From Candidatus Rokuibacteriota bacterium (lineage in GTDB: Bacteria; Methylomirabilota; Methylomirabilia; Rokubacteriales; CSP1-6), in contig QHSA01000151.1 in the NCBI GenBank assembly GCA_003220315.1, positions 1-43,882 on the forward strand: DNA of 43,882 nt, in the 5' to 3' direction. Under the pieces are notes generated by a model. The model ran no database searches and was not told the origin of the DNA. It was given only the letters and a program-made list of their open reading frames with translations. The position numbers and the translations under genes were made by a program. Shown here one piece after another: positions 19,739-43,882 of the stretch (positions are counted from its first letter, which is position 1; each line of letters starts with the position of its first letter).

Positions 19739-20257
19739 TCACTTACGCGTGTACTCGGGCCTGCGGGAGGACACCAGACGCGCGTACCGAGCCTGCAGAA
19801 TCCAGCTCAGTGTCGCGCCAATCAGGATACCCACCATGACCTTCAGGGCCAAATAGCAGTACGCCTGCACGAGGGCGAATTGCTCGGGCGTCAGCCCGAG
19901 ACGAAGTCGATGCCAATCCGCCAGGGTGGGGAAGAGCGCGGCTCCGATCAGCACCACGGTCGTGAGGAAGTGTCCGATGCTGAACGGCCGAGCCAGTCGC
20001 GTGACACTTTCCGTGGTAATGATCGCGGCCACGACGCTCAGAAACAGGCCCAGCCCGGCCAGCCGCCGCAGCGACGGATTGTCGATCGCCGAGAACAAAT
20101 CGAGACCGGCGGTCGAGCCCACCACCCACGTCAGCAAGGCTGGCAGGACGTCATAGAACAGCACATGCCCCACGACGGCCACCGGCACGAGCAGCTTTTC
20201 CAGCATCTCCGAGCGCCTGCCCGCGCTCCTCTCGTCCGCCTCATCGCTATAGGGCAT
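19739..20257 (-). CDS. Membrane protein of unknown function, four to five helices
   Basis: 172 residues, not recognised. An acidic, polar N-terminus (MPYSDEADERSAGRRSEM) precedes hydrophobic segments LVPVAVVGHVLFYDVLPALL, LAGLGLFLSVVAAIIT, FLTTVVLIGAALFPTL, LVQAYCYLALKVMVGILIGA and a basic C-terminus. The start is backed by GAGGAG 7 nt upstream of the ATG. The frame stays open further upstream through the Rieske fragment, but the ribosome site and the change in sequence character mark the real beginning here. It converges with the protease gene, the stops being 14 nt apart. Confidence 0.72.
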   Translation of the reverse strand: MPYSDEADERSAGRRSEMLEKLLVPVAVVGHVLFYDVLPALLTWVVGSTAGLDLFSAIDNPSLRRLAGLGLFLSVVAAIITTESVTRLARPFSIGHFLTTVVLIGAALFPTLADWHRLRLGLTPEQFALVQAYCYLALKVMVGILIGATLSWILQARYARLVSSRRPEYTRK

Positions 20258-20338
20258 CTCCAGGCTCCTCTGGCAGGCCGACTGCCGAAGTCGACGCCAC
20301 CGACTACTATTCCATAGGGAACGCCGCCACGCACAGAC

Positions 20339-20761
20339 GAGTCCCCACCGGCTGCGGTCGAGGTGCTCCCCGTAGGCGTCCTTCGCGAACGGTACCCCGA
20401 CCAGCGCGCCGTCCGTGGCATAGCTCCAGCCGTGGTAGGGGCACGTGAACTCGACCGTGTTGCCCTCGTCGTACCGGCAGACCTTCATGCCGCGGTGTCG
20501 GCACGAGTTCAGGAAGACGTGGATCCGCCCCGCCCGGTCGCGGCAGAGAATGACCGACTCCTCCCCCATGGACGACACCAGGTAGTCGCCCGGCCGCGTG
20601 ATCTGGCTCTCGTGGCCGACGAAGAGCCAGGCGCGCGCGAACATCCGCTCCTGCTCCTGGCGGTAGATCTCCTCGTTCACGAAGATCTCGCGGCTCACGA
20701 TGCCCTTGTCGACGTCGACCAGACCAAGGAGATCTCCGGGCTTCGGCCTCGGCATCGTCAT
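20339..20761 (-). pseudogene. Truncated Rieske-type ring-hydroxylating oxygenase alpha subunit (N-terminal third)
   Basis: 141 codons matching the start of an aromatic-ring oxygenase large subunit: GLVDVDKGIVSREIFVNEEI, then IYRQEQERMFARAWLFVGHE, then the complete [2Fe-2S] site, CRHRG (Cys87, His89) and CPYHGW (Cys107, His110), then HLDRSRWGL. At that point homology stops; the catalytic iron domain (about 280 more residues, with the 2-His-Asp site) is absent. The start has GGAGG 6 nt before the ATG. The frame then runs on without a stop through about 27 unrelated codons into the membrane-protein gene, giving a 340-residue chimera if translated. I read it as a deletion remnant; an isolated Rieske domain or an expressed fusion are the alternatives. 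Confidence 0.78.
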
Positions 20762-20935
20762 CGTGATCCTCCGGGCGGCGGCGGTCGCCCTCGGTCGCAG
20801 GCTGACGATAGCGCCGCACCGGAGCGTCCGCAAACGCCGTCAGCCCATCGAGGGGATCGCCGCGGGCCGCGGCTGTCTCAGGGGATCACGCCTTTAGATC
20901 GATGCCCGCCTGGTCGCTTTGCCTTATTGTGAGAT

Positions 20936-23077
20936 GTGGACGATGGTGACATGGCGCGCGAGCTGACAGACGGGCGCCTGGTATTCCTGTCGACCCTGCC
21001 CGCGGGGCGCGGCGAGCGCCGGCTCGCGCTCACGGTCGTACTCGTCTCCGCCGCGATCTTTCTCAGCGCGGTGCCGTTCGCGAAGATGCCGCTCGCGCAG
21101 ATCTCGGCCTTCATCCCGATCTACGAATCGGCGCTCGTGATCAACGATCTGATCACGGCGGGCTTGCTGTTCGGTCAGTTCAGCTTCTTACGATCGCGGG
21201 CGCTGTGCGTGCTGGCCAGCGGCTACCTGTTCACCGCTCTCATGACCGTCTCGCACGCGCTCACGTTTCCCGGCCTGTTCTCGCCGACCGGCCTGCTCGG
21301 CGCCGGGCCCCAGAGCACGGCCTGGCTGTACATGCTCTGGCATGGCGGCTTCCCCCTCCTCGTCATCGCCTACGCACTGCTCAAGGACGCGGGGCGGGAG
21401 ACGGGTCGGCCGCGCGGCCGCGCCGGCGTCGCCGTCCTCGCCAGCCTCGCGGCGGTGTTCGTCGTCGCGGGCGGGCTCACCCTCCTCGCCACGGCCGGCC
21501 AGGACGTGCTCCCCGCGATCATGCAGGGGAACCACTACACCCCGGCGATGACCCTGGTCCGCTCGAGCACCTGGGTGTTGAGCCTCCTCGCGCTGGCCGT
21601 TCTCTGGTGGCGCCGGCCGCACGCGGTGCTCGACCTGTGGCTCATGGTCGTGATGTGCGCGTGGCTCTTCGATATCGCGCTCGCCGCGGTCTTTAACGCC
21701 GGCCGTTTCGACCTCGGTTTCTATGCCGGCCGGATCTATGGGCTGCTGGCGGCGAGCTTTGTGCTCATGGTGCTGCTGCTCGAGAACGGCAAGCTCTACG
21801 CTCGGCTCGTCGAGGCGCACGAAAGCGAGCGCCGGGAGCGCCAGCGCGTGCAGGAGAGAACCACCGAATTGACCGCCGTGAACGCGGAGCTGGCGACCGA
21901 GGTGACCGAGCGCCGTCGCGCCGAGGCCGAGGCGGAAGCGGCGAATCGTGCCAAGAGCGAGTTCCTCTCGCGGATGAGCCACGAGCTTCGGACCCCCCTC
22001 AACGCGATTCTCGGATTCGCGCAGCTCCTGGAGCTCGAAGTGCGGCAGCCGGCGGATCGCGAGAGCGTCGAGCAGATTCTGAAGGGGGGCAGACATCTGC
22101 TGGGCCTGATCAACGAGATTCTCGAGATCGCCAGGATCGAGTCGGGGCAGCTCCCCTTGTCGCCCGAACCCGTGCCTGTGGGCGACGCGATCCAGCGGGT
22201 GCTGGACCTGGCGCGGCCGCTGGCGGCCGCGCGTGGCATCGAGCTCGACACGACTGGCGCAGCGCTCCACCCGCGGCACGTGTGGGCAGACCAGCAGCGG
22301 CTCCAGCAGGTGCTCCTGAACCTCGTGTCGAACGGGATCAAATACAACCGGGACGGAGGTCGGCTGACAGTCGCGTGTGACGTGGCTCAAGACGGCCGAC
22401 TTCGGATCCGCGTCACGGACACGGGGCCCGGCATCGCCCCGGCGCTACAGGAGCGGCTGTTCCAGCCATTCGACCGACTGGGCGCGGAGCAGCGTGGGGT
22501 GGAGGGGACGGGCCTGGGTCTGGCGCTGTCCAAGCGGCTCGTCGAAGCCATGGGGGGTACGATCGGCGTGGAGAGCCAGCCGAGCGCGGGGAGCACGTTC
22601 TGGGTCGAGTTCCTCCAGGCGGAGAGCCCGGTGGCGCGTCAGGAGCGCAGCGAGTCGGATGTCACGGCACTCCCGACGTCCTCAGAGCAGGGCGGTACGG
22701 TGCTCTACATCGAGGACAACCTCTCGAACCTGCGCCTGGTGGAGCGAACAATGTCCCGGCGCCCACGGGTCAAGCTCATCCCCGCGATGCAGGGACGTCT
22801 TGGACTCGCGTTGGCGCGACAGCACCGGCCAGACCTGATTCTGCTGGACCTGCACCTCCCCGATATCTCGGGAGAAGAGGTGCTGCGTGAGCTCCACGGC
22901 GATCCCGAGCTCCGGCAGACGCCGGTGATCGTCCTGAGCGCCGACGCCACCCCCGGGCAGGTTCAGCGGCTCCTGGCGACCGGGGTGCGCGCCTACCTGA
23001 CCAAGCCCCTGGATGTTCGACAATTCGTGGCGCTCCTCGACGAGACGCTGCCCGCTCGGGAGATGCCCGATGGATGA
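20936..23077 (+). CDS. Hybrid sensor histidine kinase with MASE4-like membrane sensor and receiver
   Basis: 713 residues. N-terminal membrane sensor of the MASE4 kind (about residues 20-285, seven or eight helices, with SAFIPIYESALVINDLITA and TALMTVSHALTFPGLF), a coiled linker (ERTTELTAVNAELATEVTER), HisKA with the phospho-accepting His349 in FLSRMSHELRTPLNAILGF, HATPase_c with the N box (NLVSNGIKYNRDGG), G1 (DTGPGIAP) and G2 (GTGLGLALSKRL), then a receiver with Asp638 in ILLDLHLPD and the late Lys in YLTKPLD. It autophosphorylates and passes phosphate to its own receiver; the output partner is unknown. Start: GTG at 20936 or ATG at 20951; neither has a good ribosome site. Its gene ends at a strong hairpin. 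Confidence 0.92.
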   Translation: MDDGDMARELTDGRLVFLSTLPAGRGERRLALTVVLVSAAIFLSAVPFAKMPLAQISAFIPIYESALVINDLITAGLLFGQFSFLRSRALCVLASGYLFTALMTVSHALTFPGLFSPTGLLGAGPQSTAWLYMLWHGGFPLLVIAYALLKDAGRETGRPRGRAGVAVLASLAAVFVVAGGLTLLATAGQDVLPAIMQGNHYTPAMTLVRSSTWVLSLLALAVLWWRRPHAVLDLWLMVVMCAWLFDIALAAVFNAGRFDLGFYAGRIYGLLAASFVLMVLLLENGKLYARLVEAHESERRERQRVQERTTELTAVNAELATEVTERRRAEAEAEAANRAKSEFLSRMSHELRTPLNAILGFAQLLELEVRQPADRESVEQILKGGRHLLGLINEILEIARIESGQLPLSPEPVPVGDAIQRVLDLARPLAAARGIELDTTGAALHPRHVWADQQRLQQVLLNLVSNGIKYNRDGGRLTVACDVAQDGRLRIRVTDTGPGIAPALQERLFQPFDRLGAEQRGVEGTGLGLALSKRLVEAMGGTIGVESQPSAGSTFWVEFLQAESPVARQERSESDVTALPTSSEQGGTVLYIEDNLSNLRLVERTMSRRPRVKLIPAMQGRLGLALARQHRPDLILLDLHLPDISGEEVLRELHGDPELRQTPVIVLSADATPGQVQRLLATGVRAYLTKPLDVRQFVALLDETLPAREMPDG

Positions 23078-41460: not shown

Positions 41461-41889
41461 ATGGCTGAGATGACGGCGAGACTGTTGATCGTCGACGACG
41501 ATATTGCGTTTCTCGAGGGCCTCAAAGCGTCCCTCGTCGGGCTGGGCTACCAGGTGGACCGCTCCTCGCACGGCGCGGATGCGCTCATGGCGATCCGCCT
41601 CGTGCGTCCGGACGTCGTGCTGCTCGACATCAGGATGCGCGGCCTCAGCGGCGTGGAAGTCCTGAAGCGTATCCGCGCGATGGATCCCACCATCCCCGTG
41701 ATCATGGTGACTGCGGCCGATGACCCTGTGCTCATCCGTGAGACGCGTGAGATTGGCGCCTACGGCTACCTCGTCAAGCCGATCGAGGAGCCTCGTCTGA
41801 TCCGGATGGTGGCCGAGGCCGTGGCGCGGTCCCGAGTCGAATACCAAGGTCGTGCGGGACTGGTGAGCCCGACGGCGCAAGGAAGCTAG
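41461..41889 (+). CDS. Single-domain response regulator (CheY-like receiver)
   Basis: 142 residues consisting of one receiver domain: LLIVDDDIAFLEGL (acidic pocket), phospho-accepting Asp56 in VVLLDIRMRG, VIMVTAADD (Thr switch), GAYGYLVKPIEEPRL (Lys). There is no output domain; about 20 extra residues follow. The start is ATG at 41461 or 41470. A MASE1 hybrid kinase starts 167 nt downstream on the same strand and is the natural partner, although that kinase has an altered H-box. Confidence 0.92.
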   Translation: MAEMTARLLIVDDDIAFLEGLKASLVGLGYQVDRSSHGADALMAIRLVRPDVVLLDIRMRGLSGVEVLKRIRAMDPTIPVIMVTAADDPVLIRETREIGAYGYLVKPIEEPRLIRMVAEAVARSRVEYQGRAGLVSPTAQGS

Positions 41890-41911
41890 CGCGGCTGAAG
41901 CTAGCGCGGCT
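41882..41911 (+). repeat. Perfect tandem duplication of 15 bp across a stop codon
   Basis: GAAGCTAGCGCGGCT occurs twice in direct succession (41882-41896, 41897-41911). The first copy contains the TAG stop of the response regulator. Confidence 0.9.
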
Positions 41912-41962
41912 TCGGAGCGTTTCGTCGGTGGACATCCGTGGATAAGTAGCCGCTGAATTGGC

Positions 41963-41991
41963 TTGACGTCCATCTGAGAGCAGCGTAGCGT
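41963..41991 (+). promoter_or_regulatory. Possible promoter of the MASE1 kinase gene
   Basis: TTGACG (41963-41968), 17-nt spacer, TAGCGT (41986-41991), 65 nt before the ATG. Confidence 0.45.
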
Positions 41992-42056
41992 CCCCGCCGT
42001 CCGGCTCTTCATGATGCGAGCTGACGTCGCATCGCTGTGACGGATCAGGGGATTGA

Positions 42057-43882
42057 ATGACTGGGCGTTCTGGGAACGCGCTCCTCCTGGCAGCGCTGTT
42101 CGGTCTCTACGTTCTCACCGGCAAGGTCGGGCTCTCCGTCGCCTTCGTCCACGCCAGCGCCACGGCCGTCTGGCCGCCGACGGGGATCGCCCTGGCGGCC
42201 TTCCTGACGCTCGGTTACGAGTGCTGGCCGGCGATCTTCGCAGGCGCGTTCGTGGTGAACATCTCCACTGCGGGCTCGGTGGCCACGTCGCTCGGGATCG
42301 CCACGGGCAATACCCTCGAAGGGCTCCTCGGCGCCTACCTGGTCAATCGATTCGGCACCGGTGTCAGGACGTTCGAGCGCGCGCAGGACGTGTTCAAGTT
42401 CGCCGGGCTCGCCGCTGTCCTGTCGACCATCGTCGGCGCGACGACCGGCGTCGCCAGCCTGTCGCTCGCGGGCCACGCCGCGTGGGCCGACTGGGGACGC
42501 ATCTGGCTGACCTGGTGGCTCGGCGACATGACCGGCGCCCTCATCGTCGCCCCGCTCCTGATCCTGTGGATCCAGAACCCGCGGCCTGACTTGGTCCGCC
42601 GCCGTCCCCTCGAGGCCGCGTGCCTCTGCCTGGTGACGATCCTCGTCGGACTGGCCGTGTTCGGCGAAGGCGTGGTCTTCTTCGGACTCAGGACGTTTCT
42701 GCTCACGTTCTTCTGCACCCTTCCCCTCCTGTGGGCCGCGTTCCGGTTCAGGCAGCGCGAGGCGGCGGTGCTCATCGCCGTGCTGTCGGGAATCGCGATC
42801 TGGGCGATGCTCCGGGGCTCCGGACCCTTCGCCGGCGTCACGGCAAACGAATCGCTCCTCCTGTTGCAGAGCTTCATGGGCACGGTGTCCGTCATGATCT
42901 TGTCGGCCGCCGCGCTCGTCGAGGAGCGCCGGCGGGTCGAGCGAGATCGCGAGGATCTGCTCGCGCGTGAGCAGGCGGCGCGGGCCGAGGCGGAGGGCGC
43001 CGGCCGGGCCAAGGACGAGTTCCTCGCCATGCTCGGTTACGAGCTGCGCAACCCCCTCGCGATCATCATCAGCGCCGTGAGCGTCCTCGATCGCATCGAG
43101 AGCCAGGAGGACTTCGCGGTGCGTGCCCGGGGGGCCATCCGCCACCAGATCACGCATCTCAGCCGACTGGTCGACGACCTCCTCGACGTCGCTCACGTCG
43201 CCAGCGGAAAGATCGTCCTGTCCTGTCAGCCGCTGAACCTGGCGACCAGCGTCCAGCGGTGCGTGAGCGTGTTGGCGGGCACGGGGCGGCTCGAACGCCA
43301 CATCGTCGACGTCCAGGCGGAGCCGGCGTGGGCGCATGCCGACCCGACCCGACTCGACCAGATCGTCTCGAACCTGCTCGCGAACGCGGCGAAGTACACG
43401 CCGCCGGGCGGCACGATCCGTGTGCGCGTCAGGGGCGAGGGGGATGAGGCAGTCGTCCGCGTGGCGGACACCGGCATCGGCATCCCCGTCGGGCTCCTCC
43501 CACGCATCTTCGACCTGTTCGTCCAGGGCGAGCGTGGGCTCGATCGCGCCAAGCAAGAGGGGCTTGGCGTCGGCCTGACGCTGGTCCGCCGCCTGGTGGG
43601 CCTGCATGGTGGACGGGTCGAGGCGTCGAGCGACGGGCCTGGCCGCGGCAGCGAATTTGTCGTCCGGCTGCCTCGGATCGCCCCCGCGCCGGCCGAAGAC
43701 GTTGCCAGACCTCCGGCGAGCCAGCGTCACCGGATCCTGATCGTCGACGACAACCCCGCAGCACGACAGATGCTTCGCCTCACGCTCGAGCTGGCGGGCG
43801 ACGAGGTGGAGGTCGCGGAGGACGGTCACCGGGCACTCGACCTCGCGGAGAGCGGCTGGCCCGAGGTCGTCCTCATCGACAC
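42057..43882 (+). CDS. MASE1 hybrid sensor histidine kinase with His-to-Tyr H-box (partial, runs off window)
   Basis: 608 codons visible. The MASE1 membrane sensor (about 1-290, eight helices) carries its signature ATAVWPPTGIALAAFL and TWWLGDMTGALIVAP. A coiled linker (REQAARAEAEGAGRAKDEF) leads to HisKA, but the H-box reads FLAMLGYELRNPLAIIISAV: the phospho-accepting His is Tyr328 (TAC, 43038-43040). HATPase_c is intact: NLLANAAKYTPPGG, VADTGIGIPVGLL, GLGVGLTLVRRLVGLHGG. A receiver starts at RILIVDDNPAARQML, and the window ends at its phospho-site Asp (VVLID). No ribosome site is obvious before the ATG. As it stands it should be unable to autophosphorylate in the usual way; it may be a phosphatase, a pseudokinase or a heterodimer partner. 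Confidence 0.9.
   Translation, partial: MTGRSGNALLLAALFGLYVLTGKVGLSVAFVHASATAVWPPTGIALAAFLTLGYECWPAIFAGAFVVNISTAGSVATSLGIATGNTLEGLLGAYLVNRFGTGVRTFERAQDVFKFAGLAAVLSTIVGATTGVASLSLAGHAAWADWGRIWLTWWLGDMTGALIVAPLLILWIQNPRPDLVRRRPLEAACLCLVTILVGLAVFGEGVVFFGLRTFLLTFFCTLPLLWAAFRFRQREAAVLIAVLSGIAIWAMLRGSGPFAGVTANESLLLLQSFMGTVSVMILSAAALVEERRRVERDREDLLAREQAARAEAEGAGRAKDEFLAMLGYELRNPLAIIISAVSVLDRIESQEDFAVRARGAIRHQITHLSRLVDDLLDVAHVASGKIVLSCQPLNLATSVQRCVSVLAGTGRLERHIVDVQAEPAWAHADPTRLDQIVSNLLANAAKYTPPGGTIRVRVRGEGDEAVVRVADTGIGIPVGLLPRIFDLFVQGERGLDRAKQEGLGVGLTLVRRLVGLHGGRVEASSDGPGRGSEFVVRLPRIAPAPAEDVARPPASQRHRILIVDDNPAARQMLRLTLELAGDEVEVAEDGHRALDLAESGWPEVVLID

Follow-up and report, generated by a model that had tools for sequence, protein, structure and literature searches.

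The closest described counterpart of the protein considered here is DivL of Caulobacter crescentus (PDB ID: 4q20), in which a tyrosine, Tyr550, sits at the acceptor position of the HisKA domain inside a recognisable DHp–CA core, and which binds DivK~P while being inactive in vitro both as a kinase and as a phosphatase (PMC4211667). DivL carries several PAS domains, comes from the Alphaproteobacteria, and has a Tyr that is conserved among its homologues (PMC4211667). Kinase-dead HisKA proteins have also been made in the laboratory, for instance CrdS H371A and the His243 mutants of EnvZ, where the acceptor His is lost and the T/N residue is kept; this residue, four positions after the His, is the one needed for phosphatase activity (PMC3510030). 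Published HisKA proteins deprived of the His have no kinase activity; phosphatase activity falls only modestly in CrdS H371A, and in PleC H610A it is lost as well (PMC3510030). A further example is the ChrS pseudokinase of an evolved Corynebacterium glutamicum, a catalytically dead kinase that still sways signalling via another kinase (PMC9491836).

A protein with Tyr at this position lies at the end of a 43,882 nucleotide stretch of DNA from a soil-type bacterium, Candidatus Rokuibacteriota, here called the window. The features needed to follow the argument are these:

41461–41889, forward strand: stand-alone receiver (VDDD...VVLLDIRMRG...TAAD...VKP), about 168 bp before the kinase gene (PF00072, E 2.8e-27).
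42057–43882, forward strand: MASE1–HisKA–HATPase_c–receiver hybrid histidine kinase, from the open frame and Pfam; 608 codons are visible and the contig end cuts the gene.
42087–42932, forward strand: MASE1 membrane sensor domain, residues 11–292 (PF05231, E 2.1e-48, 165 bits against a cut-off of 29.8).
43008–43199, forward strand: HisKA (DHp) domain, residues 318–381 (PF00512, E 3e-10, 40.6 bits against a cut-off of 26.9), predicted to form a two-helix hairpin.
43038–43040, forward strand: Tyr328 (TAC) at the position of the phospho-accepting His, from the sequence and the alignment; CAC in nine orthologue loci.
43050–43052, forward strand: Asn332 (AAC), the conserved T/N residue for HisKA phosphatase activity, kept, from the sequence and the alignment (role: PMC3510030).
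43341–43676, forward strand: HATPase_c (CA) domain, residues 429–540 (PF02518, E 2e-28, 99.8 bits).
43734–43882, forward strand: N-terminal part of a receiver, residues 560–608, up to just past the phospho-acceptor Asp (VVLID; PF00072 positions 1–49 of 111).

Compared with DivL, the window kinase has a MASE1 sensor and a receiver, its Tyr is seen in one genome only, and Pfam found no PAS domain in it. The laboratory mutants differ in being engineered, with His changed to Ala in CrdS, whereas the present case is natural and carries Tyr, and the inactivation of ChrS originated in a frameshift in the CA domain rather than at the His.

The preliminary description had placed a Tyr at bases 43038–43040 in place of the H-box His, and both the reading frame and the alignment bear this out. 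The forward strand at 43021–43060 reads tcctcgccatgctcggttacgagctgcgcaaccccctcgc, and the TAC within it is codon 328, in frame from the ATG at 42057 (...ATG CTC GGT TAC GAG CTG CGC AAC CCC...). In an alignment of 135 distinct HisKA–HATPase cores, each at least 35% identical and at least 200 residues long, the phospho-acceptor column is His in all 134 other cores and Tyr in the window protein, which thus lacks the phospho-accepting His of the H-box; the T/N position, four residues further on, is occupied by Asn332. We discarded apparent Tyr calls at four other loci (L002, L008, L024 and L027), where a PAS-like stretch (RLYGYAAREV) had been wrongly aligned with the H-box. When searched against the PDB with phmmer, the segment amlgYelrnpl pairs with gnvsYelrtpl of DivL (4q20), placing Tyr328 directly on Tyr550. 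Judged from these alignments, its position on the acceptor column is no chance look-alike. We rejected a special homology to DivL, since the His-bearing orthologue scores about equally against 4q20 (E 2e-28, compared to 1e-29 for the window kinase); the likeness is therefore one of HisKA domains generally, with a Tyr acquired independently.

The remainder of the kinase core is well kept. Among 39 near-invariant columns of the core alignment (at least 97% conserved), the window kinase breaks one, and that is His328Tyr; none is broken in the CA domain, where the N box (N439, N443), DTGIGI (D471, G473, G475), F485 and the G2 box GLGVGL are all intact. Glu329, beside the acceptor position, is also kept. 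In the predicted structure (mean pLDDT 80) the CA sandwich and the helical hairpin of the DHp domain are both retained, and residue 328 falls within the first helix. The earlier statement that the ATP-binding domain and the receiver are both intact thus holds for the former. The latter cannot be asserted to be intact, as the contig (G000:C261), all of which is the window, stops at 43882, right behind the receiver Asp codon, leaving 1–49 of 111 receiver positions on it and the receiver Thr/Ser and Lys, as well as any downstream gene, beyond its end. The source genome is rated 98% complete and lies in 301 contigs. We sought the missing end of the gene there by means of the region that follows in a same-genus sister genome (G002), and did not find the junction; another contig (G000:C123) carries some later genes of that region and breaks off at its own first match.

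The nearest relatives by sequence match are the Candidatus Rokuibacteriota metagenome genomes AR22, AR23, AR26 and AR27. Orthologues matched over the core occur in seven genomes of one sister genus, at 68–75% identity over MASE1–HisKA–HATPase, and all seven have His at the acceptor position; an eighth genome (G062) holds only a fragment that does not cover the H-box. At base level the codon is CAC in 9/9 orthologue loci compared, some of these being two copies of one record, so that, as had been proposed, a single C-to-T transition suffices to explain the Tyr. Three genomes of the same genus as the window gave no match over the kinase core at the level of an orthologue, and for the MASE1 part gave at most 59% identity or nothing above threshold. 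A degenerate DNA pattern for the Tyr H-box, L-[SGA..]-Tyr-E-L-R-[NT]-P, occurs once across 95 phylum genomes, at the site in the window, and a search for further Tyr H-boxes of this form in the family and the phylum found none besides it. The His version of the pattern has 116 sites in 57 genomes of the family; as the pattern covers one form of the H-box, these figures serve as a comparison rather than a full census. Since all seven orthologue genomes have His, the result that the preliminary description itself had named as a refutation, Tyr328 is private to the source genome, and a conserved pseudokinase family is not borne out.

The orthologous group varies in other ways. The His-bearing members (those of AR22, AR23, AR26, AR27 and others) differ from the window kinase not only in their CAC codon but in ending soon after the HATPase domain; the receiver of the window kinase is missing from the sister-genus orthologues at loci L009, L010, L038–L041 and L118, by gain on one side or loss on the other. 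The orthologue in G068 (L122 and L040) lacks about 25 residues, a linker helix, between MASE1 and HisKA and is otherwise intact. That in G065 (L121:2380–3108) keeps its His and has GLSLDL in place of the G2 box GLGVGL, together with F485L and N439T, which from its sequence is likely to be a second, different loss of catalysis within the same small kinase group. Our literature search found no useful paper on Rokubacteria kinases.

Substitution patterns agree with a gene under constraint. Pairwise dN/dS (Nei–Gojobori) between the window gene and the seven orthologues is 0.22–0.34, compared to 0.11–0.29 among the orthologues themselves, the highest values being those of the window gene and G065. 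Against the orthologues, 191–230 of about 510–537 third positions differ in the window gene, versus 61–92 second positions. By this measure the window kinase gene is one that has been constrained over its history, somewhat less than its relatives. These ratios, together with the single broken column among 39, uphold the earlier view that the gene is not in general decay. A recent change is not datable from them, because the nearest relative is 75% identical and synonymous sites are heavily changed.

We give about an even chance to the explanation that a real, lineage-private CAC-to-TAC substitution arose in a well-kept MASE1 hybrid histidine kinase, costing it autokinase activity and leaving regulator binding; its basis is one base in one genome. 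With no imidazole at position 328, no phospho-His would be formed, and therefore neither autophosphorylation nor transfer of phosphate to the protein's own receiver would be expected. Dimerisation, ATP binding and response regulator binding would probably be kept, and a response regulator may be dephosphorylated via Asn332. That phosphatase activity is kept is a guess by analogy, as PleC H610A and DivL both lose phosphatase activity too (PMC3510030, PMC4211667). Any residual role would be that of a kinase-dead phosphatase, a sink or a scaffold.

The strongest rival to a private substitution is a strain polymorphism or a consensus or assembly error, with CAC at 43038 in the population or in the true sequence, and early decay of the gene comes next. 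We regard polymorphism or error as a possibility to be taken seriously, though on the whole doubtful. The assembly is split into 301 contigs, and this one comes to an end inside the same gene, 844 bases after the changed base; the gene is an accessory one, lacking an orthologue at this level in the three same-genus genomes; and a transition at the residue most guarded by selection, in a core otherwise canonical, is just how a false or rare base is expected to look. Against this, there is no direct sign of error. The frame is clean and the other near-invariant residues are unbroken, which speaks against a generally poor local consensus.

That Tyr328 marks the start of gene decay, in a kinase dispensable to this lineage and only just inactivated, we consider unlikely. 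The patchy, accessory distribution is in keeping with it, as are the pairwise dN/dS values, in which the window gene and G065 rank highest. The G065 orthologue, from another genus, points the same way: its degraded G2 box and N439T beside a kept His imply that loss of catalysis does occur in this kinase group. However, the window gene stays open for 608 codons, uninterrupted by any stop or frameshift; its third-position bias is strong, and every other key residue is in place.

The preliminary description supposed that the adjacent stand-alone receiver would be left short of its obvious donor. In G002, the upstream ABC-transporter genes (91% identical in nucleotides) and the receiver (81% in amino acids) follow in the same order, but homology does not extend past the receiver; no MASE1 kinase comes after it, the next gene encoding a metallo-beta-lactamase-fold protein. 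In another genome (G001) the receiver (78%) lies close to an alpha/beta hydrolase gene and one resembling an integrase. As both genomes carry the receiver without the kinase, we rejected the two as a conserved pair; the lost donor finds no support, the seven core-matched orthologues of the kinase being in another genus. Within window positions 41832–42056, where the receiver gene finishes, synteny with G002 (L138) is lost, which suggests either an accessory insertion of the kinase or a deletion in G002. The source genome also holds a paralogue of the receiver, 79% identical, on a short contig with another stand-alone receiver (L140, G000:C104). Elsewhere in the window, another hybrid histidine kinase, encoded at 20936–23077, has the canonical H-box SHELRTPL, and a reverse-strand frame at 19739–20833 begins like the large subunit of a Rieske ring-hydroxylating dioxygenase and continues into membrane-like sequence, suggesting that the gene has been truncated or has suffered a frameshift.

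These results bear on whether the protein is a repurposed pseudo-histidine kinase after the manner of DivL, its Tyr maintained by selection for sensing a response regulator or controlling another kinase. DivL proves that a protein with Tyr in place of the His can still bind its regulator (PMC4211667), and the window protein is intact around Tyr328, but the Tyr of DivL is conserved across homologues where this one is in a single genome, and the adjacent receiver is no conserved partner; we find such repurposing very improbable. That Tyr328 takes phosphate from ATP, giving a working tyrosine-phosphorylating kinase, is hardly credible: the CA domain and Glu329 are intact, but DivL, the studied Tyr case, is without autophosphorylation (PMC4211667).

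As one base in one metagenome assembly, the observation serves chiefly as a warning about how single-residue changes are read in genomes of this type, and there is only a slim prospect that it represents an independent, naturally selected, DivL-like Tyr conversion of a MASE1 hybrid kinase, caught early and outside the Alphaproteobacteria, in a group where a member from another genus has a degraded G2 box. If the base is real, it would be a natural one-step change of His to Tyr at the DivL position, in an unrelated sensor architecture and in another phylum. It would then show the ease of the step from kinase to pseudokinase, in a group where His-bearing relatives are available for comparison.
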